In this document: positions 31,482 through 56,943 of the stretch, in pieces | Position numbering within the stretch: the first letter of the stretch is position 1 | How the letters are laid out: each line of letters opens with the position of its first letter | Program-made: the position numbers and the translations under genes | Notes under the pieces: model-generated | What the model saw: the letters and a program-made list of their open reading frames with translations, nothing else | Databases searched by the model: none | What the model was told of the DNA's origin: nothing | NCBI RefSeq assembly: GCF_004005945.1 | Contig: NZ_SACS01000001.1 | Coordinates: 496,001 to 560,000, forward strand | Origin: Rheinheimera riviphila | GTDB taxonomy: Bacteria; Pseudomonadota; Gammaproteobacteria; Enterobacterales; Alteromonadaceae | Length of the DNA stretch: 64,000 nucleotides | Direction: 5' to 3'

Positions 31482-31516
31482 CAATAGTAGTATTTATCAT
31501 ATAAATATAACTATTG
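31482..31516. promoter_or_regulatory. Candidate operator ahead of the galT operon
   Basis: A 35-base near-perfect palindrome: outer arms CAATAGT (31482-31488) and ACTATTG (31510-31516), inner arms TATTTAT (31491-31497) and ATAAATA (31501-31507) around CAT. It lies 40 bases ahead of the galE remnant/galT unit. Sites of the same inner design recur at 36571, 38333, 41705, 41859, 44942, 55577 and 56765 near galactose- and glycerol-related genes. The likely binder is the FadR/GntR protein encoded at 41892. Confidence 0.6.
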
Positions 31517-31555
31517 CGTTATTTCTGATTGTTGGCGCGTGGAAAGGATTGCTGA

Positions 31556-31741
31556 ATGAAAGTTTTGGTCACCAGTGGGAAGGGCTGTATCAGCAGTCAC
31601 CGTGGTATTGCCTTGATGCCGGCTGGCATCACACCAGGGAATTTTGATCGTTTGAGCAACACCAGCGCCAAAATGCTGCATCGACGGCAAGCCTTTAGCG
31701 GCCAGCATGGTGAATTTACGACGGAGTCTGCTGATGAATAA
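31556..31741 (+). pseudogene. galE: Decayed galE (UDP-glucose 4-epimerase) N-terminal remnant
   Basis: A 61-codon open frame whose product tracks the first 60 residues of GalE: MKVLVTSGKGCISSH corresponds to the MKVLVTGGAGYIGSH opening, and FDRLSNTSAKML to the LDNLSNSS segment. The NAD-binding glycine motif is damaged (GGAGYIG became SGKGCIS), and the rest of the roughly 340-residue enzyme is missing, so it cannot be an epimerase. It still has a good Shine-Dalgarno (GGAAAGGA) and its TAA (31739-31741) overlaps the galT ATG (31734), so it may now act as a translated leader coupled to galT. The identity rests on remembered GalE sequence, not on a search. Confidence 0.75.
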
Positions 31742-32813
31742 CGGCAAAGCTGCATCCCTTGATGTATTGCCCTTAACCCAAACGCATCGCCGGAAAAATC
31801 CGTTATCCGGCGATTGGGTGCTGGTGTCGCCGCACCGCAATAACCGCCCCTGGCTCGGCGCCACCGAAGCACTGGCCGAAGACCAGTTGCCGCAACATGA
31901 TCCGGCTTGCCCTTTGTGTCCACGTAATCAAAGGGCCAATGGCGAAACCAATCCCGATTACGCCTACACCCATGTTTTTGTGAATGATTTTGGCGCTTTA
32001 ACGCCGGGTGTGACCGAGATTGCCGAAAGCGACGATGCGCTATTTAGTTATACCGCCGCCAGCGGTGAATGCCGGGTGATTTGTTTTTCGCCGGATCACA
32101 ATAAGACCTTGCCGGACCTGTCTTTAACTGAGCTCTCTGCGGTCATCAGCACCTGGCAGCAACATTATCAGGAGCTAAGCCAGCACTATGCCTGCATCCA
32201 GGTGTTTGAAAATAAAGGCGCTATCATGGGCTGCTCGCAACCGCACCCGCATGGCCAAATCTGGGCGCATCCGCATTTATCCACCGAAATCAGCCGCGAA
32301 GATGACCAGCAACGGGCGTATTTTCAGCAACATGGCCGGGCATTACTCGCTGACTACGCGGGGCGGGAAAGCCTTGATGGCAGCAGAACGGTGTTTGAAA
32401 ACCAGCATTGGCTGGTGGTGGTGCCGTTTTGGGCGGCCTGGCCTTTTGAAACCCTGGTACTGCCGAAGGACAATCTACAGGCATTACATGAGCTCAATCA
32501 GGCGCAAAACCAGGCGCTGGCTGAAGCTTTAAAAGTGCTGACCACCAAATACGACAATTTGTTTCGCTGTAGTTTTCCGTACTCGATGGGCTGGCACAAT
32601 GCGCCGGCCGGTTTCGCCGAACCTCAGTTACATTGGCGCTTACACGCCCATTTTTATCCGCCGTTGCTGCGCTCAGCCACAGTCAAAAAACATATGGTGG
32701 GTTATGAGATGTTGGCAGAAAGTCAGCGCGATTTAACCCCGGAAACAGCCGCTGCCATTTTACGGGCCGCGTCGACCCTGCATTACACACAAGGAACCCC
32801 TGATGACGTATGA
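31734..32813 (+). CDS. galT: Galactose-1-phosphate uridylyltransferase
   Basis: A 359-residue Leloir enzyme that swaps UMP between UDP-glucose and galactose-1-phosphate. The catalytic HPHGQ (171-175) lies in SQPHPHGQIW, the zinc Cys pair is CPLC (59-62), and WHNAPAG, QLHWRLHAHFYPP complete the C-terminal half. The frame extends upstream, but the ATG at 31734 follows GGAG. It overlaps the galE remnant's stop and overlaps galK by 11 bases, so these are tightly coupled. Confidence 0.96.
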   Translation: MNNGKAASLDVLPLTQTHRRKNPLSGDWVLVSPHRNNRPWLGATEALAEDQLPQHDPACPLCPRNQRANGETNPDYAYTHVFVNDFGALTPGVTEIAESDDALFSYTAASGECRVICFSPDHNKTLPDLSLTELSAVISTWQQHYQELSQHYACIQVFENKGAIMGCSQPHPHGQIWAHPHLSTEISREDDQQRAYFQQHGRALLADYAGRESLDGSRTVFENQHWLVVVPFWAAWPFETLVLPKDNLQALHELNQAQNQALAEALKVLTTKYDNLFRCSFPYSMGWHNAPAGFAEPQLHWRLHAHFYPPLLRSATVKKHMVGYEMLAESQRDLTPETAAAILRAASTLHYTQGTPDDV

Positions 32814-33975
32814 ATCGTTACAACAACAGTTTCAGGCACTGTATCAGCGGCCAGCGCAAGGCGTGGCCAGCGCGCCGGGACGCGTGAATTTGATTGGTGA
32901 ATTTACCGATTACAATCAAGGCTTTGTATTTCCTTGCTCACTGGATTTTCGCACTGTGGTGTTATTTGCCGCACGTTCGGATCAGCAATTAGTGGTGCAT
33001 TCGGTGAATTATCCGGGCGAGCATGACTCTTTTGCGCTGGATCAACCCGTAGTGACCGGCCCTTCGCAGTGGGGCAATTATATTCGCGCCATGGTGTATG
33101 TGCTCAAAGGTGCAGGCCTGCAACTGGGCGGTGCCGATTTGCTCATTAGTAGCAATGTGCCACAAGGCGCCGGTTTGTCGTCCTCAGCAGCGCTGGAAGT
33201 AGCGATTGGCGGCGCTTTTAATCAGCTGAATACGCTGGGTTTATCGTTACAGCAAATCGCCTTATTCGGCCAACAAGCTGAAAACGATTTTATGGATTGT
33301 CAGTGCGGCATTATGGACCAGCTGATATCGGCCAAAGGTGCACAAGGCTATGCGCTGCTGATCGACTGCCGCGATTTACAGACCACAGCCGTCGCGCTGC
33401 CAGCGGACTTGAAGCTGGTGATTATTAATTCTAACTATCCACGAAAACTGGTTGATAGCGAATACAATCAGCGGCGGATTGATTGTGAACAAGCGGCACA
33501 AAAGATGGGCCTGCAAAGTTTGCGTGATGGCACCTTAGCGTTACTGCAAGCGACCAAACCGCAATTAACCGATACCGAATATCGCCGTGCGCGGCATGTG
33601 ATCAGCGAGAACAACCGGGTGCTGGCGACCCAACAGGCGCTTGCCGCTAATGATATGGCGGCGCTGAGTGCGCTGATGCGTGCTTCGCACCTGTCGCTGC
33701 GCGATGATTTTGAAGTGACAGTGCCGCCGGTTGACGGTTTGGTCGATATTTGCCGCGAAACCCTCGGAGATGAAATTGCGGTGCGGATGACCGGCGGCGG
33801 TTTTGGTGGGGCTATTGTTTGTTTATGCCGCGACGAGCATGTGCCTTTACTGCGCGAAGCTTTAACTAACAACTATCAGCAGCGTTTTGCTTTGCACGCC
33901 GATTTTTATCTCTGTAGCGCCGGTGGCGGCTTGCAGATTGAATTATTCAACGCGCTGCCTGCTGCAAATGCATGA
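32803..33975 (+). CDS. galK: Galactokinase
   Basis: A 390-residue GHMP-family kinase that phosphorylates galactose at C1. Signatures: APGRVNLIGEFTDYN (about residues 24-38), the phosphate-binding NVPQGAGLSSSAAL, DFMDCQCGIMDQ carrying the catalytic Asp, and GGGFGGAIV near the C-terminus. The usual GEHTDYN here reads GEFTDYN, a variant I recall in other gammaproteobacterial GalK proteins. It follows galT with an overlap and is followed after 34 bases by an exported hydrolase on the same transcript. Confidence 0.95.
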   Translation: MTYESLQQQFQALYQRPAQGVASAPGRVNLIGEFTDYNQGFVFPCSLDFRTVVLFAARSDQQLVVHSVNYPGEHDSFALDQPVVTGPSQWGNYIRAMVYVLKGAGLQLGGADLLISSNVPQGAGLSSSAALEVAIGGAFNQLNTLGLSLQQIALFGQQAENDFMDCQCGIMDQLISAKGAQGYALLIDCRDLQTTAVALPADLKLVIINSNYPRKLVDSEYNQRRIDCEQAAQKMGLQSLRDGTLALLQATKPQLTDTEYRRARHVISENNRVLATQQALAANDMAALSALMRASHLSLRDDFEVTVPPVDGLVDICRETLGDEIAVRMTGGGFGGAIVCLCRDEHVPLLREALTNNYQQRFALHADFYLCSAGGGLQIELFNALPAANA

Positions 33976-34009: not shown

Positions 34010-35377
34010 ATGACCGCTTTCACATCTTCCCTCAGTCGCCGCAATGCTCTGGCGCTTGGCTTGTTGCTGGTGACCAGCCCGCTGGCCGTATCAGCCAAGC
34101 AAACGATACCTGAGCAGCTTTATCCGGCATTATCGGCAGAAGTTTTGCCAGAGCTGGCCGCTGCCGGCCGTTTTGCTGTGGGCGTGAAAACATTGCAGGT
34201 GACCGATCCTGCACGGTTTGACCCGCTCACTCAAGGTCCCAAAGCCCGTAAGCTGACGCTGGAAATCTGGTATCCGGCAGCGGCAGACGCCTCCAAAGCT
34301 TTGACATCCTATGAAAATCAAAGCCGTAGCGGCGTGCCGTTTAGCTTGCAGGCAAGTGCGATGCGCGACGTGCCGGTGCTGAAAAATGGGAAGGAAAAAT
34401 ACCCGCTGGTGGTGCTGTCACACGGTTACACCGGCTATCGCACCATTATGTTTTATCTGGCCGAGCATTTAGCGTCGCAGGGGTACATTGTGGTGGGCAT
34501 CGACCACACCGATTCCACCAATGCTGAAATTGATATGAAAGCCGCGCCTTTTGCCGGTTTTGTCAGCACGCTGCTTAATCGTTCGCGCGATCAACAATTT
34601 GTGCTGGAGCATTTGCGTCGTGAATCAGCGCTCACCGGTTCACAACTGGATGGCAGCAAAGCGGCGGTGATTGGCTATTCGATGGGCGGATTTGGCGCGC
34701 TCAGCACCATTGGCGCTTGTTATGATTTTAATCCGATGACCACAGCGGCTTTTACCGGCTTAAAAGATCCGGCGCAGCTTGCCGCAATGCAGCAGTTATT
34801 GAATAGTTGTGCCGGTGGTCAGTACCCGGCGGCAGCTGAAAAACCGTCACAAGCCTCTGGCGCCACGCCAACTCCAGATCCAGCCTGGCAAGCCGCAATT
34901 GCGCTGGCGCCCTGGGGTGGTCAGCATCAATTATTCTCTGCTTCCTCGCTGGCATCGTTAAAAGTGCCAGTGCTTTATGTGGCGGGCGATTTGGATGATG
35001 TGTCGGGCTATGCCGGTATGCAATCGCTGTATCAACAAAGTGGCAGCAAAGCCAAGTATTTACTGACTTACCACAACGCCCGGCACAATATAGCCCCGCA
35101 TCCGGCACCTGCTGTTGCCAGCAGCAGCGAACTCGATGTCGGTCATTATCATGAACCGGCCTGGTCGGTGCGCACCCTGAACGAAGTGAATAAACATTTT
35201 GCACTGGCGATGCTGGATTGCCACGTTAAACAACAAAAAGCGCGTTGTGCTTATCTGGATTTACCGGCCAGCCCGGATCAAAAACCAGTGGATGGCAAAA
35301 CACCGGACACCTGGCGCGGCTTTGACCATCGTTATGCGACCGGGATGTCATGGCAGCAAGGCGCTGCCAAGCCATAA
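34010..35377 (+). CDS. Exported (Tat-like signal) alpha/beta hydrolase in the gal operon
   Basis: A 455-residue protein with an N-terminal signal bearing SRRNALALG, a plausible twin-arginine motif, and cleavage near residue 29. The hydrolase core shows PLVVLSHGYTGYRTIMFYLAEHLASQGYIVVGIDHTDS, the nucleophile Ser in GYSMGGFGAL, the Asp region in VLYVAGDLDDVSGY and a late His in HNARHNIAPH. The family is PAF-acetylhydrolase/dienelactone-hydrolase-like. The gene starts 34 bases after galK, so it is probably co-transcribed with galT-galK. A role in freeing a galactosyl compound from an ester or lipid is inferred from context only. Confidence 0.75.
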   Translation: MTAFTSSLSRRNALALGLLLVTSPLAVSAKQTIPEQLYPALSAEVLPELAAAGRFAVGVKTLQVTDPARFDPLTQGPKARKLTLEIWYPAAADASKALTSYENQSRSGVPFSLQASAMRDVPVLKNGKEKYPLVVLSHGYTGYRTIMFYLAEHLASQGYIVVGIDHTDSTNAEIDMKAAPFAGFVSTLLNRSRDQQFVLEHLRRESALTGSQLDGSKAAVIGYSMGGFGALSTIGACYDFNPMTTAAFTGLKDPAQLAAMQQLLNSCAGGQYPAAAEKPSQASGATPTPDPAWQAAIALAPWGGQHQLFSASSLASLKVPVLYVAGDLDDVSGYAGMQSLYQQSGSKAKYLLTYHNARHNIAPHPAPAVASSSELDVGHYHEPAWSVRTLNEVNKHFALAMLDCHVKQQKARCAYLDLPASPDQKPVDGKTPDTWRGFDHRYATGMSWQQGAAKP

Positions 35378-35453: not shown

Positions 35454-36380
35454 TTACAACAACCACTGCGGCGATAAATCGCAGTGGTTTTCAAGCACTC
35501 CCTGAACACCATGCAGCTGATAAATAAACAAATTTCCTGCAAGCGGCTGCTGCGCAAGCTGCGCTTCGGATAACCCCAGCCTGGATGAAGTGATGAATAA
35601 CAAATCCAGATTGGGACCACCAATGGCCACACTGGACGGTTGTGACACCGGCAGGGTTAATTCCAGATCGATACTGCCATCAGGGCGATAACGCACCACT
35701 TTTCCAGCCCCCCAATGGGCATTCCACAGATAACCAGCCGCATCAATGGTTGAACCATCCGGATGGGCATTATGCGGCGTATCGGCAAACAACACAGCAT
35801 CGCCGACAGTGCCGGTGGCAGCATCATAAGGGTATTGCTTGATTTGATGTTTGGGCGAATCGGCATGATACAAAGTGCGACCATCGAGGCTCCAGCACAA
35901 ACCGTTGGAAATGCATAAACTGCCTAAAACCGGTTGTGCCTGGCCTGTGGCATCAAGCCGGTACAAAGCGGCTTGCGTGTCAGAAATGGCTGCGTTTTCG
36001 ACCATAGTCCCGGCCCAGAATTCACCTTGCCGATTAACACGGCCATCATTAAAGCGGTGTCCGGCCAGCTGAACTTCCGGCTGACTGAGCCATTTCAATG
36101 CTTTGGTCTGTGGGTTGTACAGGGCAAAACCTTCGGCAAAAGCGACAATCAGCTGGAAATCCTGCTGTGGCCCTGGCTGCAAAAAGGCAAAACTGCCAAT
36201 GCGCTGTGGCAACGCAAAGACGCTGTATGCGGCATCGGTGAGGCTGTAGCGCTGCAGCAATGCTGCTTCAATATCAATCCAGTAAATGGCCTGATCTTCG
36301 TGATGCCAAAGCACATTTTCGCCGAGAATATTTTGCGACGCGATGCTGGTTAACAGCGCACCCACGGTAGCAGTGTTCAC
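35454..36380 (-). CDS. SMP-30/gluconolactonase-family sugar lactonase
   Basis: A 308-residue six-bladed propeller lactonase. Metal-site and family motifs: LGENVLWHHEDQAIYWIDI (Glu ligand), HRFNDGRVNRQGEFWAGTM (Asn/Asp), SNGLCWSLDGRTLYHADS and HPDGSTIDAAGYLWNAHWGAGKVVRYRPDG. Such enzymes open galactono- or other aldonolactones made by sugar dehydrogenases. It converges with the hydrolase gene and diverges from glpK across the region with the 36571 operator. With the SDR and DgoK genes it forms part of an oxidative galactose route. Confidence 0.9.
   Translation of the reverse strand: MNTATVGALLTSIASQNILGENVLWHHEDQAIYWIDIEAALLQRYSLTDAAYSVFALPQRIGSFAFLQPGPQQDFQLIVAFAEGFALYNPQTKALKWLSQPEVQLAGHRFNDGRVNRQGEFWAGTMVENAAISDTQAALYRLDATGQAQPVLGSLCISNGLCWSLDGRTLYHADSPKHQIKQYPYDAATGTVGDAVLFADTPHNAHPDGSTIDAAGYLWNAHWGAGKVVRYRPDGSIDLELTLPVSQPSSVAIGGPNLDLLFITSSRLGLSEAQLAQQPLAGNLFIYQLHGVQGVLENHCDLSPQWLL
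35461..35489 (-). terminator. Hairpin in the 3' end of the lactonase gene
   Basis: AACCACTGCG (35461-35470) pairs with CGCAGTGGTT (35480-35489) around a 9-base loop, inside the last codons of the lactonase and between convergent genes. On the plus strand it is followed by TTTTC. It may end the gal operon or the lactonase transcript, or both. Confidence 0.5.
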
Positions 36381-36570: not shown

Positions 36571-36587
36571 ATATTATAAGATATATA
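36571..36587. promoter_or_regulatory. Candidate operator ahead of glpK
   Basis: Read on the minus strand this is TATATAT CTT ATAATAT, matching the TATTTAT CTT ATAAATA site ahead of the TonB receptor gene. It ends 12 bases before the glpK start and about 190 bases from the divergent lactonase start. AT-rich, so chance resemblance is possible. Confidence 0.5.
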
Positions 36588-36599: not shown

Positions 36600-38081
36600 A
36601 TGAAAACGCGTTATTTGCTGTCGATTGATCAGGGCACCACCAGCTCCAGAGCTGTGGTTTTTTCCGTTGATGGCAAACCTGTAGCTTGTGTCCATGAAGA
36701 ATTTACCCAGCATTATCCGGACAACGGCTGGGTCGAACATGATCCAGCCGACATCTGGCGGACTGTGCTCAGCACCTGCAAAAAAGCTTTGGCGCAGCTG
36801 CATTTGAACGCCGCGGATATTATCGCCATTGGCATTACCAATCAGCGCGAAACGACGTTGGTGTGGGACAGAACCACCGGCGAGCCGCTGTACAATGCCA
36901 TTGTCTGGCAGGACCGACGCACTACGGCTTATTGTGAATCAATCTATAGCGAACAGACCGAAGCTTTGATCACCGCCAAAACCGGTCTACTGCTGGACCC
37001 GTATTTTTCCGCCAGTAAAATCCGCTGGATTTTAGATCAGGTGCCAGGGGCGCGGGAACGTGCTGAACGCGGTGAATTAGCCTTTGGCACCGTCGATACC
37101 TTTTTACTGTGGCAGCTGACGCAAGGCCAGGTACACCGCACCGATGCCACTAATGCCTCCCGCACCATGTTATTTAATATTCATACCCAACAATGGGATG
37201 AACAATTATTGAACCTGTTTGATATTCCAGCATCGATGCTGCCAGAAGTGCTGGATTCATCCGCCGATTTTGGCATGACTGCCGCAGAATTACTGGGCGG
37301 CGCGATACCGGTGTATGGCATGGCAGGCGATCAGCAGGCGGCGCTGTTTGGCCACGCTTGTTTTGAGCAAGGTATGGCCAAAAGCACCTATGGTACTGGT
37401 TGTTTCCTGATGCTCAATACCGGCGACATGCCGTTAAAATCGGCCAACCGGTTGCTGACCACCGTAGCCTATCGGCTCAACGGCAAAGTCACCTACGCCA
37501 TCGAAGGCAGTATTTTTATGGCCGGCGCCACCATGCAGTGGATAGTTGAAGGGCTGAAATTATTGCGCCATGCCGGTGAAAGCGAAGCCATGGTCAAAGA
37601 TGTACCACTGGATCACGGCGTGTTTTTAGTCCCCTCTTTCACCGGTCTTGGTGCGCCCTACTGGGATCCCAATGCCCGTGGCGCCATTTTAGGCTTAACC
37701 CGCGATTCGGGCATCAGCACTATTGTCGCCGCGGCTTTGCAATCCGTGGGTTACCAGACCAAAGATTTACAAAAAGCGATGGAGCGTGATGGCTTAAGAC
37801 CCAAAGTGCTGCGGGTTGATGGTGGCATGGTGAAAAACAACTGGGTGCTAAGTTTCCTGGCTGATATTTTAGGCGCCGTAGTCGAACGGCCGCAAATTAT
37901 TGAAACCACTGCGCTTGGTGCAGCTTATCTGGCCGGATTACACGCCGGTGTTTACCACTCCACCAGCGAACTCGCCGCCATGTGGCACTGCGAACGCCGC
38001 TTTGAACCTAACATCTGTACCGAACAACGCAATCATTTATATGCGCAGTGGCAACATGCGGTGGCGCAAGTGCGGCTTTGA
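36600..38081 (+). CDS. glpK: Glycerol kinase
   Basis: A 493-residue FGGY-family kinase making glycerol-3-phosphate. The phosphate loop [14 protein letters not shown] (residues 8-21), [30 protein letters not shown] and the [21 protein letters not shown] region are all canonical GlpK. Length fits E. coli GlpK (502). It sits in a block of galactose genes, has its own candidate operator and ends at a strong terminator. No glpF is found in the window. The gene's company suggests that glycerol arises inside the cell from a galactosyl-glycerol compound. Confidence 0.96.
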
Positions 38082-38083
38082 TA

Positions 38084-38121
38084 AAAAGGGGGCGGAGCAC
38101 ATTTACACTCCGCCCCCTTTT
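38084..38121 (+). terminator. Intrinsic terminator after glpK
   Basis: Arms 38084-38097 and 38108-38121 (AAAAGGGGGCGGAG and its complement) flank a 10-base loop, ending in TTTT. It starts three bases after the stop. The GGGGGCGGAG core is shared with the terminators at 1249 and 2091. Confidence 0.9.
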
Positions 38122-38332
38122 ACAATCCCTCACTGTGATAATAATCAATCGCATTGCTGTACGTGAAAATAACTAATTTCACTGACAGCTCAATTACTCC
38201 AGCACAGCGGACACTCGTCGTTTCGCGAGCGGCAGCTGGCCAAGCTCTGGCCTTACCACCAACCTTTTTCCCACCTTCTGCCCAAATGCCGCTTGTCAGT
38301 GAAGCAGGATCGCCATATCATGAGATATATAC

Positions 38333-38349: not shown

Positions 38350-38363
38350 AATTGGTGATGGCG

Positions 38364-39914
38364 ATGAGCGAAACTGCGCAAATCTATGATGTGCTGGTGG
38401 TTGGAGGGGGCATCAATGGGACGGGTATTGCGGCGGATTGTGCGGGTCGGGGGTTGGATGTGTTGTTGTGTGAACAGCAGGATCTGGCCTCTGCAACATC
38501 GTCCAACAGCAGTAAATTGATCCATGGTGGTTTGCGTTATTTAGAGCATTACGAGTTCCGGCTGGTAAAAGAAGCGCTGGCCGAACGGGAAGTGCTGTTA
38601 AAAAATGCGCCGCATATTATGTGGCCGATGATTTTCCGGCTGCCGCACCAGCCAAATTTACGCCCAGCCTGGCTTATCCGCACCGGGTTGTTTTTATATG
38701 ACCATCTGGCAAAACGGGTCACCTTACCGGCGTCGCGCGGTATTCGTTTTGGTGCGGATAGCCCGCTGCAAAGTCAATTTAAAAAAGGTTTTGAATATGC
38801 CGATGGCTGGGTCGACGATTCCAGGCTGGTGGTCAGCAATGCATTGGCTGCAGCGCAGTATGGGGCAACCATTGCTACCCGCACCCGCTGTATTCTGGCG
38901 CGGCGCGAACAGGATCATTGGCTGGTGACCTTACAGCCAGCACAACAAGCGGCTTATCAAATCAAAACCCGCGCCATCGTCAATGCCGGTGGCCCCTGGG
39001 TTGCCAGGTTATTTGATGAAGCTTTAGAAGACAAATCGCCGCAGAATGTCCGTCTGGTCAAAGGCAGTCATATTGTGGTGCCACGCCTACACACACAGCC
39101 GCACGCTTATATGCTGCAAAATCAGGATCAGCGGATTGTGTTTGTGATCCCATTTGAAGATAACTTTACCTTGATTGGTACCACCGATGTCGAGTATCAG
39201 GGCGATCCGGGAAAGGTGCAGATCAGTAGCGAGGAAATCAGTTATTTGCTGGACATCAGCAACCACTATTTTAATCAACAGCTCAAGCCAGAAGACATCG
39301 TCAGCTCGTTTTCCGGGGTGCGGCCGTTATTGGATGATGAGTCGGCCAGCGCGCAAACTGTCACCCGCGACTATAAACTAGAACTCAGTACGCAAAACGG
39401 CCAACTGCCTTTGTTGTCAGTGTTCGGCGGCAAAATTACCACCTACCGCAAACTGGCCGAAGCGGCGACCGACAAACTGGTCGAGTTTTTCCCGGGCGCC
39501 AGTGGTCGTTGGACCGCCAGCCAACCGCTGCCAGGTGGCGAATTTAGGTCAGTCGAGGCACTTTCCAGCGAACTTCGCCAAGCCTACCCCTGGCTGCCGG
39601 AACAACTATTGCGGCGTTATCTGCGCAGTTACGGCAGTCGCAGTCGGCTTGTTTTGCAGCAAGCGGAGACGTTGGCTGATTTAGGCCAGGATTTTGGCCA
39701 TGGATTGTTTGCCGCTGAAGTAACCTATTTGATGGCGCACGAATGGGCACAAAGTGCCGAAGATGTTTTATGGCGACGCAGCAAGCTTGGCTTGTATTTT
39801 AGTCCGGCACAAACCGCCACATTGGCCGGTTTTATGGCACAGCACCTGGCCGGAATTCCTGCTACCGCTGATGAAGCAACGGCACATAGAGTAGCCGACA
39901 CAACCCCGGCTTGA
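38364..39914 (+). CDS. glpD: Glycerol-3-phosphate dehydrogenase, FAD, quinone-linked
   Basis: A 516-residue flavoprotein that oxidises glycerol-3-phosphate to dihydroxyacetone phosphate and passes electrons to quinone at the inner membrane. The FAD fingerprint VVGGGINGTGIAADCAGRGLDVLLCE (from about residue 11), SSKLIHGGLRYLE and the GGKITTYRKLAE segment are typical of GlpD. Several ATGs cluster; 38364 has GGTG before it and gives the usual MSE start. It is separated from glpK by a terminator, so the two have separate promoters. Together they convert glycerol to DHAP. Confidence 0.95.
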   Translation: MSETAQIYDVLVVGGGINGTGIAADCAGRGLDVLLCEQQDLASATSSNSSKLIHGGLRYLEHYEFRLVKEALAEREVLLKNAPHIMWPMIFRLPHQPNLRPAWLIRTGLFLYDHLAKRVTLPASRGIRFGADSPLQSQFKKGFEYADGWVDDSRLVVSNALAAAQYGATIATRTRCILARREQDHWLVTLQPAQQAAYQIKTRAIVNAGGPWVARLFDEALEDKSPQNVRLVKGSHIVVPRLHTQPHAYMLQNQDQRIVFVIPFEDNFTLIGTTDVEYQGDPGKVQISSEEISYLLDISNHYFNQQLKPEDIVSSFSGVRPLLDDESASAQTVTRDYKLELSTQNGQLPLLSVFGGKITTYRKLAEAATDKLVEFFPGASGRWTASQPLPGGEFRSVEALSSELRQAYPWLPEQLLRRYLRSYGSRSRLVLQQAETLADLGQDFGHGLFAAEVTYLMAHEWAQSAEDVLWRRSKLGLYFSPAQTATLAGFMAQHLAGIPATADEATAHRVADTTPA

Positions 39915-47751: not shown

Positions 47752-47830
47752 TCCGTTGCCTCCCACAATGAAAGTTTTTAATGACACGGCATCGTTAATA
47801 AACAAGACGCATTGTGTTGCCCTAAATAAA

Positions 47831-47951
47831 GTGGTGGATGACGCTTCGCTTATCCACCCTACGCCAAACTAGCAAAACCACTTCTCAAAACATCAGAATC
47901 AAAAGAACATATTTAATTGCGGTGGATAAGCGCAGCATCATCCACCATCTA
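47831..47951 (+). repeat. REPIN, right copy beside the transposase gene
   Basis: A 121-base direct repeat of the left REPIN, with a five-base deletion (CGTAG) and a few substitutions. It starts 80 bases from the transposase start codon and thus lies in its promoter region. Confidence 0.85.
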
Positions 47952-47976
47952 ACATCCACCAACCTCCATGAAATCA

Positions 47977-48802: not shown

Positions 48803-50257
48803 CTATTTTTCCAGTACCGCCTCAAACCGGCCGGCCCAACGGGTTTGCTGGCCAAAGGCGAATTTATTCAGCAGTAGCGCAAAAGCGACACAGCTAAACA
48901 AAGTGACGGGCATTAAATGGATGTAATGCACAGTGGTGTAAAAAGGTGAGAAACTAAAGGTCAGCGAACCGTACAGCAGCACGCCAAAAATCACTGCGGC
49001 AATCGCAGCGCGGGCATCCACATTGGTAAACAGCAGGCCAACAATAAAAATCGACAGAATAGGCATGCTCAGCAGGCCATTCAGTTGCTGCAGCAAATTG
49101 ATAATACTGTCGGCTTGCTGATACACCGGCACCAATACTAAGGTCAGTATCGTTAAACCCAACGTCACGTAACCACTGAGCTTAAATACGTTCGGGTTTT
49201 TCTCGAAATAAGCCTCATGAATATCACAGACATATAAGGCCGTGGCGGAATTGAGCAGGCTGTTATACGTCGAAAGTACGGCGGCGGCCATGGCGGCGGC
49301 AAACACACCACTGAGCCAACCCGGCATTAAATCACCGACAATCCGGCCGTATGCCGCATCACCGATATCACCATAAAGTTTGTACGAAACAATGCCTGGC
49401 ACCACCACAATTGCCGGCACAATCAGGATCCGGATGATGGCCGCAGCAAACACACCTTTTTGCGCCTCTTTGACGTTTGGTGCTGCCATCGCGCGTTGGG
49501 TGATCGTCTGATTGGTGCCCCAATAATACATCTGAATAAACACCATCCCGGTGAGCAGTGTTTGCCAGGGCAGTGGTGAGTCAGCATCGCCAATCAGGGT
49601 TAACCGTTCAGCCGGAATACCAGAAAAGTCAAAATCAATGGCAAATAACGCCAGGATCACCACCAGTACCGCCATGCCGAGCACCAACACACCGTTGTAA
49701 GTATCGGACACCGCCACCGCACGCAAGCCGCCAAAAAAGGCGTACATGGCACCCACCAATGCAAAAATCAGCGCGATATACATCAGCGGAATATCCACTT
49801 TAAACATGGTTTGCATCAGCAGTGCACCGGAGTAAGTCACTGCCGGCATATAGATCAAAGCATTCCCAAGGAAAAACAAACCACCAATCACCGCACGGAT
49901 GTGCTTGTTGTGATAGCGTTTTTCCAGAAGTTCGGTGGTGGTGGTGCACTGATAACGGTAATACACCGGAATAAATACTTTGGCCAGAATAATCAGACCG
50001 ATCACCGCCGCCAGCTCCCACCACACCAGCAACATCATCTGGTTGCCGTTCATACCAACCAGCTGATCAGTACTTAAATTGGTTAAGGTGATGGAGCCTG
50101 CGACAAAAATCCAGCTCAACCCCCCACCTGCCAGAAAGTACTCTTTGTTCTGGCTGTTATGATCGCGTTTCTGGCCACGGCATTTGACGTACGTCAGGCC
50201 GCCTATCAAAGCACTGACGATAATAAACACCGCCAGCTGTATCATGTTATCGGACAT
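48803..50257 (-). CDS. SSS-family sodium/sugar symporter
   Basis: A 484-residue inner-membrane transporter of the SLC5/SSS family, with about 13 membrane helices. The first part (YFLAGGGLSWIFVAGSITLTNLSTDQLVGMNG) and the LYGGLRAVAVSDTYNGVLVL-like segment resemble the Vibrio galactose symporter vSGLT. Expected role: sodium-driven uptake of galactose or a galactoside after passage through the outer-membrane receptor. It is the last gene before the terminator at 48745, after TonB receptor, halogenase and SapC genes. Substrate is inferred from context. Confidence 0.88.
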   Translation of the reverse strand: MSDNMIQLAVFIIVSALIGGLTYVKCRGQKRDHNSQNKEYFLAGGGLSWIFVAGSITLTNLSTDQLVGMNGNQMMLLVWWELAAVIGLIILAKVFIPVYYRYQCTTTTELLEKRYHNKHIRAVIGGLFFLGNALIYMPAVTYSGALLMQTMFKVDIPLMYIALIFALVGAMYAFFGGLRAVAVSDTYNGVLVLGMAVLVVILALFAIDFDFSGIPAERLTLIGDADSPLPWQTLLTGMVFIQMYYWGTNQTITQRAMAAPNVKEAQKGVFAAAIIRILIVPAIVVVPGIVSYKLYGDIGDAAYGRIVGDLMPGWLSGVFAAAMAAAVLSTYNSLLNSATALYVCDIHEAYFEKNPNVFKLSGYVTLGLTILTLVLVPVYQQADSIINLLQQLNGLLSMPILSIFIVGLLFTNVDARAAIAAVIFGVLLYGSLTFSFSPFYTTVHYIHLMPVTLFSCVAFALLLNKFAFGQQTRWAGRFEAVLEK

Positions 50258-50300: not shown

Positions 50301-51074
50301 TCAGCCATGAACGGAGCGGCTGATTTCCAGCTTGATATTTTTAAGTGGCGGATGGTCAGAATGCTGCCCAGCAAGTCGAACGTTATGCAATTGAATCAAC
50401 CGGTTCAGCCTGGAAATCGACAACAACATGGCATGCAATAACAACAGATAACCCTGTTGTTGCAGCTGATGTAACGTTTCGGCACTGACTAACTGCAGCT
50501 TGTCTTCATCAACCGTTGCCAGACCTTTAATCAGCTGACTGCTGCCATCCGCATGCAGCAGATGCAGGTCTAACTCTTTGATCAGCCCCAGCTCATTCAC
50601 TGCCTTCACAAACTGAAAGGTCAGATATTCCTGTTGTAAGTCTTTATCCAACATGGCTTTTTGCTGACGCAGGTAATCTGTGGGTTGACCATTTTCACTA
50701 AATAACGGCATGGCACCTGCCGCGGCGCCCTTTTTCAGCACCCGCGAGTCCGCCACCAACATCAGCTGCGCAGGATCAGTACCCAACAGCAGCGGATAGG
50801 TCTGCATACCAACCGGCTGATAACTGCCAAGCCATTGGCCTTGTGGCAGCCACAAATTCTGCGCCGGTGTGAAGCTATATAAGCCCGACAATAACCATTG
50901 CCCGGTCTGCTGATGACGACTGAAAAATACCGGCACATCGGCCATCACCTGGCCAATTTCGCCAAGCCGCACATTAAGCAAATGCTGCGAAGCGGCGTAG
51001 ATCAGAGCGGCATCAGTGGTCACAGCGGTATCCAGATGGCTGGCAACGGATAACGGGATCAACGAGTTCATCAT
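50301..51074 (-). CDS. SapC-family protein
   Basis: A 257-residue soluble protein of the SapC family: VPVFFSRHQQTGQWLLSGLYSFTPAQNLW, then a segment resembling the YPLLLGTDPAQLMLVAD part of that family, and a C-terminal ISRLNRLIQLHN. These proteins occur beside TonB receptors and tryptophan halogenases in sugar-utilisation loci, but their role is not known. AGGGGGTAA precedes the ATG; the start abuts the halogenase stop, indicating coupling. Confidence 0.8.
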   Translation of the reverse strand: MMNSLIPLSVASHLDTAVTTDAALIYAASQHLLNVRLGEIGQVMADVPVFFSRHQQTGQWLLSGLYSFTPAQNLWLPQGQWLGSYQPVGMQTYPLLLGTDPAQLMLVADSRVLKKGAAAGAMPLFSENGQPTDYLRQQKAMLDKDLQQEYLTFQFVKAVNELGLIKELDLHLLHADGSSQLIKGLATVDEDKLQLVSAETLHQLQQQGYLLLLHAMLLSISRLNRLIQLHNVRLAGQHSDHPPLKNIKLEISRSVHG

Positions 51075-52631
51075 TTACCCCCTACTCCCGGCTAGCCAGC
51101 GGTTGATGTAGTCACGATGCGACGGCAAGGTTTGCAGCATTTGTGTCGTCAGTTGCTGGTTGCGACGAATAATTTGCTGCGCTTGCCCCTGCTGTTGATA
51201 CAGATAAGCCTGCGCACTGAAATCCGGTTTAAAACCCATGCCATACAACACATATTGGTAACTGGCTGCCGGAAATAGCTCCAGCGCCCCGTTAAAATCA
51301 GCGATCTGCGGCCCGCGATGCCGCCACAGCTGTAAATCATCTTGCAGACTCTGCGGAATAGTGGCTGGGTCCAAATGTGCCTGCCAATAAGGCTCTGGCC
51401 TTTTGGTCAACATATAATGCAATTTCAGAAAATCCAGAATACGTTGCCAGCGATACAACATTTGCTGGTTAAAACGCCGCGCCACTAACGGCATGGTCGC
51501 TTGATCGGCCGGTAAGTTATCGGCAACAAACCGCGCTGAAATTTCCACCAGCATAATGGCCGTCGCTTCCAAAGGCTCGACAAAACCAGCCGCCATGCCA
51601 ATCGCTACACAATTGTGCTGCCAGAATTTAGTGCGGTGGCCAGTCGCAAAACTGATTTTGCGGACTGCAACGCCTTCGGCAGCTTTGCCGATGTAACGAC
51701 GCAAATTAAACTCCGCTTCGTCATCACTTAAATATTTCGCGGCGTAAACATGCCCGACACCACGACGATGAGTCAGGCCAATATCCCAGATCCAGCCAGC
51801 ATTTTGCGCTGTGGCGATGGTATGGCAAGGAATAGGTGCATCCGGATTATCGTAAGGCACCTGCATCGCCAATGCGCTGTCGTTAAACAATAAATGATCA
51901 ACGCTCTCAAAAGGCACGCCCAGGGTTTTGCCCAGTAATAACGAGGCAAAACCGGTGCAGTCGACAAACAAATCGGCTTCGATAGGCTCAGAGCCATCGG
52001 TCAGATGCAAGGCTTTAATCTGGCCATCGGCAGTTAATTCGCAGCGCTCCACGGTGCCGATGCGCTGCTCGACACCCAGTTTGGTTTTACAGTGTTGTTT
52101 GAGTAAATCGGCAAAAGCGCCGGCATCCAGATGATAAGCGTAATTGCACTGGCCCTGATATTCGCCCTCGGCCAAAGTGCGGGGTGCCAGTCCGGCTTCA
52201 CAAATCTGATGCTGAAAATTACTGTCGATGGCGAACTGACTGACATCATCGACATAAGGTGCCAGATCAATCCGACCGTATCCCATCGGAACGGTAAACG
52301 GATGGTAATAGAATTCTTGCTCAGGGCCTGAATCGCTGCTGAGTTGGGCGGCGGAGCGTACCCAATTGACAAACTTGCCACCTTGTTTAAACACGGCATG
52401 GCAATGGGCAAACACATCGGCTTCCTTCAAGCCAATTTGCTGCAGGGTATTTTTCATTGTTGGCCAGGTGCCTTCACCGACACCGATGGTCGGAATATCG
52501 GCCGACTCCACCAACATCACCTGCAATCCTTCTGCGGTATTGCTGCGATGCTGTGCGGCGATAATAGCGGCACTTAACCAGCCGGCGGTACCACCACCAA
52601 CGATAACCAGTTTCTTGACTGCTGTTGTCAT
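51075..52631 (-). CDS. Flavin-dependent tryptophan halogenase-like protein
   Basis: A 518-residue flavoprotein of the tryptophan halogenase family. IVGGGTAGWLSAA binds FAD, GVGEGTWPTMKN follows and the second motif reads GWIWDIGLTHRRG; classical halogenases have WxWxIP, so a Pro to Gly change is present, as I recall in the sugar-locus branch. It is encoded between the TonB receptor and SapC genes. Its true substrate is not known; activity on tryptophan is not assured. A hairpin at 52672-52705 lies between it and the receptor gene. Confidence 0.85.
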   Translation of the reverse strand: MTTAVKKLVIVGGGTAGWLSAAIIAAQHRSNTAEGLQVMLVESADIPTIGVGEGTWPTMKNTLQQIGLKEADVFAHCHAVFKQGGKFVNWVRSAAQLSSDSGPEQEFYYHPFTVPMGYGRIDLAPYVDDVSQFAIDSNFQHQICEAGLAPRTLAEGEYQGQCNYAYHLDAGAFADLLKQHCKTKLGVEQRIGTVERCELTADGQIKALHLTDGSEPIEADLFVDCTGFASLLLGKTLGVPFESVDHLLFNDSALAMQVPYDNPDAPIPCHTIATAQNAGWIWDIGLTHRRGVGHVYAAKYLSDDEAEFNLRRYIGKAAEGVAVRKISFATGHRTKFWQHNCVAIGMAAGFVEPLEATAIMLVEISARFVADNLPADQATMPLVARRFNQQMLYRWQRILDFLKLHYMLTKRPEPYWQAHLDPATIPQSLQDDLQLWRHRGPQIADFNGALELFPAASYQYVLYGMGFKPDFSAQAYLYQQQGQAQQIIRRNQQLTTQMLQTLPSHRDYINRWLAGSRG

Positions 52632-52760: not shown

Positions 52761-55523
52761 TCAGAACGAACCGCGTACGCCAACAGAATAACGGGAACCG
52801 TTATCTTCGACTGAGTAGATCTGGTTCTTGAAGCGACCGGTTTGCACCAGCTCTTCTTCAGTGATGTTGATCCCCTCGATAAAGAACGTCAGATACTCGT
52901 TGTAGTCATAGCTGGCACTGATATCCCACTGGCCAAAGGTTTCGGTGTTAATCGGCTCGCCGTTAAAACCGTTATCCAGCGCGCGCAGGAAACCTTCCCG
53001 GTTGTTAAAGGCGATCCGCGCCTGCCACACGTCCTGCTCATAGAACACCACCAGGTTTTGTGAATCGCCGAGTCCTTCCAGCGCAAAACTCTGGGTGCTG
53101 TCGGCCGTAACCGACAAATCGCTGTCGACCACTGTGGCGTTGACAGAAGCGCCAAAACCGTTGTCAAACATATGCGTCAGCGCCACTTCATAACCGGTAA
53201 TTCGCGCCGATTCGCCGTTCTGCGGCCGGGTCACAGTGTAGATTTCCGATGAACCGTTTAGCTCATTGGTCGTGCCGACCACTGCGCCGCTACAAAGAGC
53301 AGAATTGGTGATGCTACAACCAAAACCAGGACCGGTGCGGCTGGTCATGTTGTAAGTTTCAGTGCCGGTCAGGGTCACAATAAAGTCTTCCACTTCTTTA
53401 TTAAACACCGCGAAACTGAACATGCTGGCGTCGTTGTAATACCACTCGTAGGAAATATCCCAGTTTTCTGCCTGGAACGGTTTTAATGCCGGGTTACCGC
53501 CGCTGGCCGTCAGGTTCTGCCGGCGTGGTTCGTTAAAAGTGGTGGCCGGTGACATCTGATCCATGGTTGGACGGGTGATGGTGTCGTAGCTGGCAAAACG
53601 CAGCACCATATCGTCGGCGATGCCGAGTTTGATATTCAGGTTTGGCAGCAGGTTGGAATAGCTGGTGCCCTGATGAATGGTGGTCGCAGGACCAAACACG
53701 TTGGCAAACAAGGTGGCATCTGCTGTTGGCACGATGTCGGTGACAAAACTCTGGATCGCCATCACCGACACATCCGTCGACGCATAACGCGCGCCCAGGT
53801 TCACCGTTAACGGCATTTCACCCAAATCATATTGCAGGGTGAAATCCATATACAAACTGGTGATATCTTCGTTGATGGTGTACCTGTTGTTTTGCAAAGT
53901 TGGCACTATCGGGAAACCAGAATCGGCCAGATACTGGTTCATCTTGTCACCATCATAGGTATAGAAGGTGTCAATTAAACCAGGGAAAAAGTTGTTCGCG
54001 GTGTAGGACCTAAAATCGATTTTATCCAGTGGTGCGGCAGTGCCATAACCACAAAACCGGCATTGTGAACCAGAAATTTGAAACGCAGATTTTTCGCGCT
54101 CCTGACGGTAAGCACCAAAATTGGCTTTTTCAAACACGCCATTTTCTGCGGTGTATTCAAAATCGGCTTTAAATTCATCGATATCATCGGTGTTGCTTGG
54201 CTGATTACCTTTTTCGTTATAGTGCATCCGCGCGCGGCTGGCATTCGGCAAGCTGCCGTTTACAAAACCGTCGTGGGCGACTGTTGGTAAACCGCCGGTG
54301 GCATCAAAGGTATAGTTGTTGATCATGCCCACCACGTTAAAGCGGTCGCGACCGGCGCGGTCGTTTTCAGCACTGGTGGTAGAAATATCAAAATCAGCTT
54401 TCAGTTTTTCGTTGATGATCCATTCAACATTTAACCCAAAAGCATCGTTGGTCACATCCCGCGAATTACGGGTATGCGACACAAAATCCGTTGCCGGATC
54501 ACCGCTGCCCTGGTGTAAACCGACTTCCTGAGTAAACCGCAACAAGGTGCCGGTGGTTGGATCAATGTCGGCGCTGCCAACCCGATCCGGTTCAAACCAG
54601 GATGCTAAGTCAGTGACCTGAGAATCGACTTCAAATTTTGACACCAGACCGTCCAAAGTCACAGTCACATCTTCTGAAGGCGCAAATTGCAGCACTAAGC
54701 TGGCGTTGGTGCGTTTGCGATCTTGCTCGTCGATGATCTGATCCCAGTTCCGCGGGATATAAGCATTGCTAAACAGCACGCCATCTTCTTTGTTCGAAAT
54801 GGTCTGACCGCCGCGCCAACCAGCCGTCGCAATTTGATTGACCTGGACTTTGCGCTGCTGCTGACTAACCGCCAGCAACACGCCAAACATATCGTCGTTA
54901 AAGGTGTTGCTAATCAGGAAGGAGCCCGAAGGCGAGGTTTCTTCTGACAGGCTTTCGTACATGCCTTTGATGGAGCCGGCGATCCGTAAGTCGTCGTAAT
55001 CAAAAGGCCGCGCTGTGCTTACATTAATAGTGCCGCCGATGCCACCTTCCTGCAATTTGGCCGACGTACTTTTATACACGTCAGCGCCGGAAATTTGATC
55101 GGCCGCCAGCACATCAAAGTTAAATTCACGACCGGCACTGTCGGTCGCTAGTTGTCGGCCATTGACCAGCACGGTGTTAAACTGCGGACCAAAACCACGA
55201 ATGGTCACCGCTTGACCTTCACCACCACTGCGGTCAATCGACACCCCGGTGATCCGTTGCAGCGATTCCGCTACGTTTAAATCCGGGAATTTACCCAGAT
55301 CTTCTGCTTTGATCCCATCCGATACCACGGAGGATGATTTTTTATCTTCCATCGAAGATTTCAGACTGCTGCGAATACCTGACACCGCAATCACTTCAAT
55401 TTGTTCCTGCTCTGCTGCAGGCTGCTGCGCCTGCTGTGCCATCGCCTGAGTGCTGAACAGACTGGCAATCGCAACGCTTAACGCGGTTCTTTTACTGATA
55501 GTTGATATTTTATAGTTATGCAT
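52761..55523 (-). CDS. TonB-dependent outer-membrane receptor
   Basis: A 920-residue outer-membrane receptor. Signal peptide (cleavage near AMAQ), then the TonB-box region, a plug domain (about 60-190: ESLQRITGVSIDRSGGEGQAVTIRGFGPQFNTVLVNGRQLATD, GGIGGTINVSTARPFD) and a 22-strand barrel ending in SVGVRGSF with terminal Phe. The plug sequence is of the Xanthomonas/Caulobacter sugar-receptor type. It is the first gene of the receptor-halogenase-SapC-symporter set and has a candidate operator at 55577. It likely imports a galactoside-containing oligomer or galactosylglycerol. Confidence 0.95.
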   Translation of the reverse strand: MHNYKISTISKRTALSVAIASLFSTQAMAQQAQQPAAEQEQIEVIAVSGIRSSLKSSMEDKKSSSVVSDGIKAEDLGKFPDLNVAESLQRITGVSIDRSGGEGQAVTIRGFGPQFNTVLVNGRQLATDSAGREFNFDVLAADQISGADVYKSTSAKLQEGGIGGTINVSTARPFDYDDLRIAGSIKGMYESLSEETSPSGSFLISNTFNDDMFGVLLAVSQQQRKVQVNQIATAGWRGGQTISNKEDGVLFSNAYIPRNWDQIIDEQDRKRTNASLVLQFAPSEDVTVTLDGLVSKFEVDSQVTDLASWFEPDRVGSADIDPTTGTLLRFTQEVGLHQGSGDPATDFVSHTRNSRDVTNDAFGLNVEWIINEKLKADFDISTTSAENDRAGRDRFNVVGMINNYTFDATGGLPTVAHDGFVNGSLPNASRARMHYNEKGNQPSNTDDIDEFKADFEYTAENGVFEKANFGAYRQEREKSAFQISGSQCRFCGYGTAAPLDKIDFRSYTANNFFPGLIDTFYTYDGDKMNQYLADSGFPIVPTLQNNRYTINEDITSLYMDFTLQYDLGEMPLTVNLGARYASTDVSVMAIQSFVTDIVPTADATLFANVFGPATTIHQGTSYSNLLPNLNIKLGIADDMVLRFASYDTITRPTMDQMSPATTFNEPRRQNLTASGGNPALKPFQAENWDISYEWYYNDASMFSFAVFNKEVEDFIVTLTGTETYNMTSRTGPGFGCSITNSALCSGAVVGTTNELNGSSEIYTVTRPQNGESARITGYEVALTHMFDNGFGASVNATVVDSDLSVTADSTQSFALEGLGDSQNLVVFYEQDVWQARIAFNNREGFLRALDNGFNGEPINTETFGQWDISASYDYNEYLTFFIEGINITEEELVQTGRFKNQIYSVEDNGSRYSVGVRGSF

Positions 55524-55576: not shown

Positions 55577-55593
55577 TATTTATCTTATAAATA
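55577..55593. promoter_or_regulatory. Candidate operator ahead of the TonB receptor gene
   Basis: TATTTAT CTT ATAAATA, a perfect 7-3-7 palindrome that differs from the galT-operon site in one base of the spacer. It lies about 55 bases upstream of the receptor ATG. Confidence 0.6.
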
Positions 55594-55676: not shown

Positions 55677-56741
55677 TTATTCGAAACTCCGATCTCTGCC
55701 AAAGGCATAGACGATTTGCTGCTGCCAGATTTGTCCGGCAACCAGCAACGCCGATGGAAAATCCGGACGATTGGGGGCATCTGGCCAATGCTGCGCTTCC
55801 AGGCATAATCCCTGCCGCGGCGAAAAAGGCGCGGTCAATCCATGCCCGGCGTAAAACTGCAAACCGGGCAAGGTACTGCTGACCGTCAGGCTAATGTTGC
55901 TCAGTGGGGAACTTAAGGTGGCCATCTGCTGTAACGCTGGCAACGGTTGGATTGGTTCATCAGTCGCTGACCCGTTCAGTTGCTGCGGGAACAGATAACA
56001 ATGATCAAAACCACCGGTCTGCTGCAGCTGCGGATCGGCTACGGCCAGCTGGCTTGCAATCGAAATGGGCTGGCGAAAATCAAAGGCTGTGTCTGCGACC
56101 AACTGACGCTGGCCAGTGGGAATAAGACTGGCATCTACCGGCAAAAAAGCATCAGCATGGATCTGCAGCTGATGGCCGCCGATATCAGCGCTGCCATCCA
56201 AGTTAAAATAACAATGATTGGTCAGGCTGATCACGGTACTGCTGTTGGTGGTGGCTCTGAAGTGGATGTGCACAGTTGTCCCTTCGAGGCGGATCTGTTG
56301 CCACACCAACAAATCCCCCGGAAAACCGCAGTCGCCATCATGACTGTGTAAAAACAGCAACAGCTGGTCCGCCGATTGCTGTTGTACTTGCCACAGCCGG
56401 TGACTAAAACCCTTGCCACCATGCAAACAATGTTCGCCGCCTGCGGTCTCCAACTGGTGGATCTGTGCGCCAAACCGCAACAGCCCACCGGCAATCCGAT
56501 TGGCATAACGGCCAACGGTTGAACCCAAATAACCATTATTTTCAAGATAATCAGAGATCTGCGGATGTTGTAACGTGAGCTCTTGCCCATCGAGCTGAAT
56601 CGAACGAATAGTGGCGCCATAAGGCAATACTTCGACCCGCAAGCCAGTCGGACTTTGCAAAATGACAGGTTCCAGCCCCTGCTGTCGCAGCAAAGATTGC
56701 GTGTTCAGGTCCTCGGACATCCCGAAAGAAAGGCTGAGCAT
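55677..56741 (-). CDS. galM: Aldose 1-epimerase (galactose mutarotase)
   Basis: A 354-residue mutarotase interconverting alpha- and beta-galactose. Binding and catalytic residues appear in GRYANRIAGG (Arg), NHCYFNLDG (His), FDHCYL (Asp) and the Glu in GLCLEAQHWPDAPNRPDFP. The ATG at 56741 follows AGGGGGTGG; a GTG nine bases earlier is also in frame. It supplies alpha-galactose to GalK after beta-galactosidase action. It is the last galactose gene of the block, with an operator at 56765. Confidence 0.95.
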   Translation of the reverse strand: MLSLSFGMSEDLNTQSLLRQQGLEPVILQSPTGLRVEVLPYGATIRSIQLDGQELTLQHPQISDYLENNGYLGSTVGRYANRIAGGLLRFGAQIHQLETAGGEHCLHGGKGFSHRLWQVQQQSADQLLLFLHSHDGDCGFPGDLLVWQQIRLEGTTVHIHFRATTNSSTVISLTNHCYFNLDGSADIGGHQLQIHADAFLPVDASLIPTGQRQLVADTAFDFRQPISIASQLAVADPQLQQTGGFDHCYLFPQQLNGSATDEPIQPLPALQQMATLSSPLSNISLTVSSTLPGLQFYAGHGLTAPFSPRQGLCLEAQHWPDAPNRPDFPSALLVAGQIWQQQIVYAFGRDRSFE

Positions 56742-56764
56742 CGGTTCCACCCCCTAAAATATAC

Positions 56765-56781
56765 TATTTATCAGACAATAT
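56765..56781. promoter_or_regulatory. Candidate operator ahead of galM
   Basis: TATTTAT CAG ACAATAT within CTATTTATCAGACAATATAG (56764-56783), 24 bases ahead of the galM start. Preceding ATAC makes ATACTATTTATC, matched at the glpD site except for one base. Confidence 0.5.
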
Positions 56782-56943
56782 AGCATCAATTTAGAGGGGG
56801 AAAGCAAGCCCGTTACCGAAAAATTGCCAAAGCCTGCTATCGATTGACGAGCGTTAGTAAATGAAGGTTTATACCCAAAATCATGTTCCGATAGCTACTT
56901 TCGGGGTTATTATCATGTCAGTTTTAACCTGACAGATATTTAA

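Follow-up and report, generated by a model that had tools for sequence, protein, structure and literature searches.

A putative operator common to galactosidase and glycerol genes in a candidate galactosylglycerol-utilisation locus of Rheinheimera riviphila

What are genes for glycerol catabolism doing in the midst of a galactoside locus? The question is raised by a block at positions 31482-56783 of a 64,000-nucleotide stretch of the Rheinheimera riviphila genome (contig NZ_SACS01000001.1, positions 496,001 to 560,000; hereafter the window, whose numbering is used throughout, with + and - for strand). Here glpK, encoding glycerol kinase (36600-38081, +; 693 bits for TIGR01311, cut-off 590), and glpD, encoding glycerol-3-phosphate dehydrogenase (38352-39914, +; 785 bits for NF008899, cut-off 360), are interleaved with genes for a GH36 alpha-galactosidase (42689-44857, -; PF02065, 417 bits; closest solved structure AgaB, 4fnq), a GH42 beta-galactosidase (45044-47035, +; PF02449, 463 bits; closest solved structure 1kwg) and the enzymes of galactose catabolism. 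The GH36 and GH42 domains both score above their family cut-offs. The block is probably a single regulon through which galactosylglycerols are imported and fully degraded; most likely these are head groups left by deacylation of monogalactosyldiacylglycerol (MGDG) and digalactosyldiacylglycerol (DGDG), widely regarded as the Earth's most abundant lipids of membranes. A preliminary description had already read it as a galactolipid or galactosylglycerol utilisation system, an interpretation supported by the linkage, common operator and esterase co-occurrence described below. Pfam and NCBIfam models, run on the larger open reading frames (ORFs) between 30,284 and 57,648, confirmed the gene families listed there and added three, SapC, a tryptophan-halogenase-like protein and a GntR/FCD regulator; the outermost of the putative operators, at 31491-31507 (-) and 56765-56781 (-), fall at the two ends of the interval it had drawn.

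These operators came from a de novo motif search, which returned a 17-bp near-palindrome, TATTTATATGATAAATA-like, in all seven intergenic regions of the block, with a log-likelihood of 106.3 as against a mean of 81.5 (standard deviation 2.4, maximum 88.1) for 30 first-order Markov shuffles. Scores of the seven range from 20.9 to 25.7 bits; no other site in the window exceeds 14.2. The putative operator precedes the galT-galK-esterase unit (operator 1, 24.9 bits), stands between the lactonase gene and glpK (operator 2, 36571-36587, +; 25.3 bits), precedes glpD (operator 3, 38315-38331, +; 21.2 bits), lies between the genes for an SDR-family dehydrogenase and the GntR/FCD regulator (operator 4, 41859-41875, +; 21.4 bits) and between those for GH36 and GH42 (operator 5, 44942-44958, -; 25.7 bits), and is found again before the TonB-receptor/halogenase/SapC/SSS unit (operator 6, 55577-55593, -; 24.6 bits) and before galM (operator 7, 20.9 bits). 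In the whole 4.75-Mb genome a pattern fitting all seven is matched exactly at seven places, every one inside the block; that these seven match follows from the construction of the pattern, that there is no eighth does not. With one mismatch allowed the genome yields 40 further rows, of which three repeat block sites in a second reading or neighbour one; the reversed pattern, used as a control, gave 15 with no more than one mismatch. The galactosidase and glycerol gene sets have one regulatory site in common, at which binding of a regulator is putative. The GntR/FCD regulator of the block (41889-42608, +; PF00392 and PF07729), 78-100% identical across the clusters of the genus, probably acts at this palindrome, as a repressor. 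A strong inverted repeat followed by TTTT lies directly after glpK (38082-38125) and is terminator-like, so that glpD is probably transcribed by itself, under an operator of its own.

Held-out genomes, scored with the window's matrix only, carry the site in corresponding places (G labels denote the genomes compared, L labels the loci). In G003, G014 and G018, all of the same genus, the regions upstream of glpK score 21.2, 25.3 and 21.2 bits and those upstream of glpD 24.6, 16.7 and 24.6; the GH36/GH42 and GntR/SDR upstream regions score 19.2-23.4, that of the galE-galT-galK-esterase unit 15.7, 21.0 and 15.7, and that of the TonB receptor 24.9 (G003) and 24.6 (G014). Since G003 and G018 are closely related and their sites identical in sequence, the three genomes count as little more than two independent cases. 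None of 49 upstream regions of non-cluster ORFs in the genus loci reaches 16.7 bits (top 16.1), and the operator is absent from the upstream regions of the second glpK in the R. riviphila genome itself (G000), G013, G015 and G008 (7.2, 7.2, 3.3 and 3.9 bits). G025, from another genus, has 23.0 bits before GH36, 18.8 before GntR and 20.4 before galT, and G030 has 17.2 before a run of SDR, dgoK, lactonase, GntR, glpK and galM, with at most 9.3 at the other cluster genes scored. G032 shows 13.2-14.8 bits at its cluster promoters and 18.1 before a distant glpK, scores not relied on because the base composition of its DNA differs (45-46% G+C vs 51% here).

Within the genus (22 genomes, that of R. 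riviphila included), full-length GH42 occurs in five, and the same five hold a glpK scoring 680-697 bits. GlpD of family PF16901 is present in 5/5 of these and was found in 0/17 of the others, in which a divergent GlpD-like type, present at 27% identity in G030 and G032, was not searched for. The distance from glpK to GH42 is about 7-10 kb in four of the five, the two genes lying on separate short contigs in G018. Gene order is mostly kept in four relatives of the genus, at protein identities of 36-100%; G014 is without the lactonase gene and dgoK and keeps the SDR gene. Apart from galE, none of the genes flanking the window's block was seen in the stretches compared of G003 and G014, so the block stays together in different surroundings. 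In a GlpK tree the five cluster proteins of the genus form one clade (96/93), separate from the other GlpK of the genus; sampling for the tree was selective, and the number of origins is therefore not inferred. That other kinase is encoded in the R. riviphila genome at C28:62799-64253 (L001), is 48% identical to the block's GlpK, and has neither a glpD of the window type nor the operator beside it. The idea that the block is the genome's sole glycerol locus was given up on account of this second, operator-less glpK, yet it remains true in part, since the sole PF16901 GlpD of the genome lies inside the block.

The family was sampled with 147 genomes, Thalassotalea algicola and Aliiglaciecola sp. 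M165 among them, GH36 and glpK being counted at E values up to 1e-100. GH36 is present in 31 and glpK in 96. A survey of relatives for glpK near galactosidases, suggested in the preliminary description, found the glycerol genes there in most: 19 of the 31 GH36 genomes, from nine genera, have glpK no more than 20 kb from GH36, where about 0.3 would be expected (binomial tail 5e-31 at about 0.95% expected per genome, kinship ignored). Chance neighbourhood of the two gene sets is ruled out by the genus co-occurrence, the family linkage and the held-out operators; their association exceeds chance.

A GH36-alignment scan of species genomes, of which the best 80 loci were considered, extends the association beyond the family. 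Loci were scored at identities of at least 44% for glpK and glpD and at least 50% for the SSS-family symporter, bars chosen after the identities had been inspected. At these bars glp genes are present in 15 of 23 loci with an SSS symporter of the block type vs 2 of 57 without. L099 (a Gammaproteobacteria metagenome-assembled genome, MAG; glpK 55%) and L113 (Demequina oxidasica; 47%) have glpK without such a symporter, and are possibly further forms of the system with other transporters. Below the bars are GlpD-like proteins of 31-33% identity in L097, L100, L103, L113, L115 and L117 (Actinomycetes) and of 27% in L055, as well as kinase matches in L083 (36%) and L125 (25%). Among the eight SSS loci without close glp genes, L051 and L055 have glpK 14 and 11 kb away, the MAG of L049 has glpK and glpD on another contig (L008), and the genome of L069 has glpK near a contig end; L059, L067, L070 and L080 are still without them.

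Carriers of the locus include Hirschia maritima, Caulobacter vibrioides OR37, Catenovulum agarivorans DS-2, Alteromonas abrolhosensis, Thalassotalea algicola and Candidatus Phycosocius bacilliformis, and the genes are arranged in many ways. Several Alteromonadaceae have the order GlpR, glpK, TonB receptor, halogenase, SapC, SSS, GH36; G030 and Aliiglaciecola M165 have SDR, dgoK, (dgoA), lactonase, GntR, glpK, galM, of which lactonase, GntR, glpK and galM are seen in G098 and G192, where the stretch examined ends at or just past the lactonase gene. Hirschia maritima has a tight run in which GH36 is followed after 10 bp by glpD, after 18 bp by glpK and after 34 bp by a galactonate dehydratase gene, then dgoK, dgoA and lactonase. 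An uncultured Erythrobacter has GH36, glpD, galT and galK as overlapping ORFs, a Parvularcula MAG has GH36, galT, galK, GlpR, glpD and GH42, and C. vibrioides OR37 holds SSS, an abh2 relative (35%), GH42, GH36, TonB receptor, glpD and glpK together. In L060, L062, L064, L066 and L074 SSS and glpK are divergent from GH36, and in L066 (Ca. Phycosocius) the SSS and glpK genes overlap by 4 bp; ORF starts were taken as the longest possible, so overlaps may shrink. The differing arrangements suggest that the locus has been assembled repeatedly.

The preliminary description had assigned two exported ester hydrolases to the system. One of them, here called abh2 (34010-35377, +; families PETase, PAF-AH and Hydrolase_4), has a likely start at 34010 within an ORF opening at 33887, an N-terminus that looks signal-peptide-like by eye from that start, and conserved Ser, Asp and His in the motifs GYSMGG, AGD.DD and ARHN; its predicted structure is poor (pLDDT, the predicted local distance difference test, 54). 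Counted at E values up to 1e-40, abh2 occurs together with GH36 in 27 of the 147 family genomes, GH36 alone in 4 (G098, G156, G162, G170), abh2 alone in 2 (G002 and, as a partial match, G179) and neither in 114, and the ester-hydrolase step has thereby gained support. In 16 of these 27 genomes the two genes are no more than 20 kb apart; in the remaining 11 they are farther apart or on different contigs, so neighbourhood alone does not account for the pairing. We regard abh2 as a candidate galactolipase. The other protein, at 30284, was dropped as a member, scoring at most 7.8 bits for the operator and being matched only in G013, the closest relative, among the loci compared.

In the system that the gene families suggest, abh2, at the outer membrane or outside it, would cleave off the fatty acids; the TonB-dependent receptor (52761-55523, -; TIGR01782, 634 bits, cut-off 310) would take mono- or digalactosylglycerol across that membrane. 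The SSS-family sodium symporter (48803-50257, -; TIGR00813 over its cut-off, PF00474) would then carry galactosylglycerol, or galactose, across the inner membrane. Its closest solved relative is vSGLT (2xq2), and among what we take to be the galactose contacts of that protein, compared by eye, Q69, E88, Y263 and Q428 are kept, S91 is replaced by A and N260 by Q, and position 294 is R (wild type K); the symporter should recognise a galactosyl group, free or bound. GH36 and GH42 are without evident signal peptides (N-termini judged by eye), as the preliminary description had said, and in the cytoplasm GH36 would remove the alpha-(1,6)-linked galactose and GH42 the beta-linked one. The freed glycerol would be converted by GlpK and GlpD to dihydroxyacetone phosphate. 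GlpK aligns over its full length with bacterial glycerol kinases (4e1j, its closest solved chain, and that of E. coli); the R-E, Y and D-Q residues that presumably form the glycerol site are conserved in it. GlpF was not found, the only major intrinsic protein (MIP) match in the genome being AqpZ (gene at 1333; 422 bits, cut-off 256), and no MIP channel was found in G003, G014 or G018; this fits intracellular release of glycerol. A triosephosphate isomerase gene adjoins glpD in the cluster of G162 (L143:9030-9806) and, judged by eye, in Catenovulum agarivorans DS-2 (L053:19834-20733).

For galactose the block offers parts of two routes. GalM (55677-56750, -; NF008277, 258 bits, cut-off 240), GalK (32803-33975, +; TIGR00131, 360 bits, cut-off 227) and GalT (31707-32813, +; NF008724, 538 bits, cut-off 448) all score above their cut-offs and would process the sugar together with GalE, which the block holds only as a degraded remnant of about 54 N-terminal codons (31556-31717, +, between operator 1 and galT; found by tblastn with GalE of related clusters, 54% identity to that of L007, E 1.6e-10), the rest of the genome not having been searched for GalE. 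An open galE stands between operator and galT in G003, G014 and G018; G013 has only a remnant, like the window. To the De Ley-Doudoroff route would belong the SDR protein (40933-41691, -; closest model D-xylose 1-dehydrogenase, NF053674, 264 bits, under its cut-off of 400), which is likely a galactose dehydrogenase, the SMP-30/gluconolactonase-like lactonase (35454-36380, -; PF08450, 244 bits) and DgoK, of the 2-keto-3-deoxygalactonokinase family (39928-40929, -; PF05035, 252 bits). Outside the block, a ManD-family protein scores above the cut-offs for mannonate dehydratase and for the 'D-galactonate dehydratase family' and below that for DgoD (249 vs 311), the two ILVD/EDD matches in the genome are IlvD and Edd, and two aldolases score above the Eda cut-off and below that for KDPGal aldolase (89 and 109 vs 207). 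The genes for DgoK and SDR (39928-41691) and lactonase (35454-36380) are kept despite the Eda-type aldolases and uncertain dehydratase; as a guess, SDR and lactonase may also make a sugar-acid effector for the FCD regulator.

Which substrate would such a system serve? The galactosylglycerol part of the earlier interpretation is supported; within it the galactolipid is favoured, no more, over floridoside, mainly because the exported ester hydrolase is tied to the alpha-galactosidase. Floridoside or isofloridoside, the alpha-galactosylglycerols of red algae, would be cleaved by GH36 and yield glycerol for GlpK and GlpD, the esterase and GH42 serving other galactosides; this is the main rival, and we think it unlikely. 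The alphaproteobacterial loci L060, L062, L064, L066 and L074 fit it, having SSS, GH36 and glpK with no adjacent GH42 or esterase, as does the presence of the locus in Catenovulum agarivorans and Thalassotalea algicola, and a GH36 enzyme is reported to make isofloridoside in reverse (PMC8509150). Yet floridoside needs no esterase, and across the family abh2 and GH36 are nearly always present or absent together; GH42 here has its divergent promoter region and operator in common with GH36; and two of the MAGs with the locus bear 'pond' in their titles (L049, L064), where red-algal floridoside would seem less likely.

That the block is an ordinary galactoside locus, for melibiose, raffinose or galactans, with the glycerol genes as passengers, appears improbable. 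Its galactose genes do belong to standard families, and Rhodobacteraceae-type loci with GH36, SDR, dgoK, lactonase and GH42 occur without glp genes, but passengers would hardly explain an operator before both glpK and glpD, a linkage recurring in varied arrangements across nine genera of the family and in Alphaproteobacteria, or the concentration of glp genes in loci with the SSS symporter (15/23 vs 2/57). We give least credence to a general glycerol and lipid scavenging regulon, in which the esterase would act on triglyceride or phospholipid and galactosides would be a separate substrate under one regulator, for although the esterase core is like those of platelet-activating factor (PAF) acetylhydrolase and cutinases and a GlpR-type gene adjoins glpK in many relatives, the esterase tracks GH36 and not glpK (glpK 96/147, esterase 29/147, 27 of these 29 with GH36).

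Several observations weigh against galactolipid head groups as the substrate of one regulon. The closest solved relatives of abh2 are an esterase, polyethylene terephthalate (PET) hydrolases/cutinases and PAF acetylhydrolase, with no galactolipase in the best 60 of its 102 solved-structure matches, and the symporter, keeping four of seven vSGLT galactose contacts, could carry free galactose. Of 52 clustered loci or locus halves, 38 contain GH36, 16 GH42 and 11 a member of the esterase family; GH42 and the esterase being rarer than GH36, not every locus need serve DGDG. The regulator adjoining glpK in many relatives is of the GlpR type and not GntR, the site before glpK in G025 is weak (12.0 bits), and the galactoside cluster of G032 has no glpK inside it. 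Of the GH36 genomes of the family, 12/31 have no glpK within 20 kb: in nine the two genes are on different contigs, in three they share a contig and stand 208-260 kb apart. The family-wide counts treat related genomes as independent.

How far does the locus resemble systems already described? With the Glp regulon (glpK, glpD, glpF, GlpR) it has glpK and glpD in common, both above curated cut-offs; it differs in that no glpF was found in the genome and that the genus has a GntR/FCD regulator and the galactoside operator. Rhodobacteraceae-type loci have GH36, GH42 and oxidative galactose genes in common with the block, and no close glpK/glpD or SSS of the block type. The E. coli lac operon has a beta-galactosidase and LacY, and to our knowledge no alpha-galactosidase, esterase or glp genes. 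Galactosylglycerol from galactolipids has been proposed as its natural substrate (Egel 1979, 1988, as cited in PMC8333865). In Alteromonas macleodii ATCC 27126, the TonB receptor MASE_00935, beside an alpha-galactosidase as in the block, is entered in Table 1 of PMC7190382 with 'Galactolipids' as substrate predicted from gene neighbourhood, and is given there as up under carbon limitation (log2 1.35); section 8 of that paper makes no argument on glycerol genes, an operator or an esterase. The passage of PMC8027193 considered names galactolipids once, for a Stenotrophomonas hydrolase. Among the literature matches listed, the 'Galactolipids' table entry and Egel's lac proposal are the prior appearance of the idea in print. 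No described bacterial gene system for galactosylglycerol head groups, and no floridoside utilisation locus, was found among the literature matches listed, in which subscription papers are sparsely covered. The nearest parallel is with clusters for sulfoquinovose, the head group of sulfoquinovosyl diacylglycerol (SQDG), in which a glycosidase, the sulfoquinovosidase, likewise heads the breakdown of a glycosylglycerol derived from a lipid of photosynthetic membranes (see PMC10755693). There the sugar is a sulfosugar and goes through sulfoglycolysis; the present locus would act on galactose, and has two galactosidases and glpK/glpD behind a common operator. We hold about evenly balanced the broader proposition that the block represents one form of a system for consuming galactolipid head groups, widespread and assembled repeatedly in aquatic Gamma- and Alphaproteobacteria, the counterpart of sulfoquinovose catabolism, with abh2 an undescribed family of secreted galactolipases and the SSS protein a galactosylglycerol symporter. 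With a conserved locus, a common regulatory site and named carriers the question is directly testable, and the locus gives genome surveys a marker set.

The surroundings of the block in the window are ordinary (hemC, hemD, hemX, hemY, lysA, dapF and a YigB-like gene). A region at 47036-47976, bounded by GH42 and a 242-aa protein without family match, holds a transposase of the type associated with repetitive extragenic palindromes (REP-associated tyrosine transposase, 47224-47805), flanked by repeated GTGGATAAGCG/CGCTTATCCACC palindromes and without counterpart in the relatives' clusters compared. The unit behind operator 6 also encodes a SapC-family protein (50301-51074, -; PF07277, 148 bits) and a tryptophan-halogenase-like flavoprotein (51075-52631, -; PF04820, 398 bits), families present in 19 and 23, respectively, of the 52 clustered loci or locus halves.

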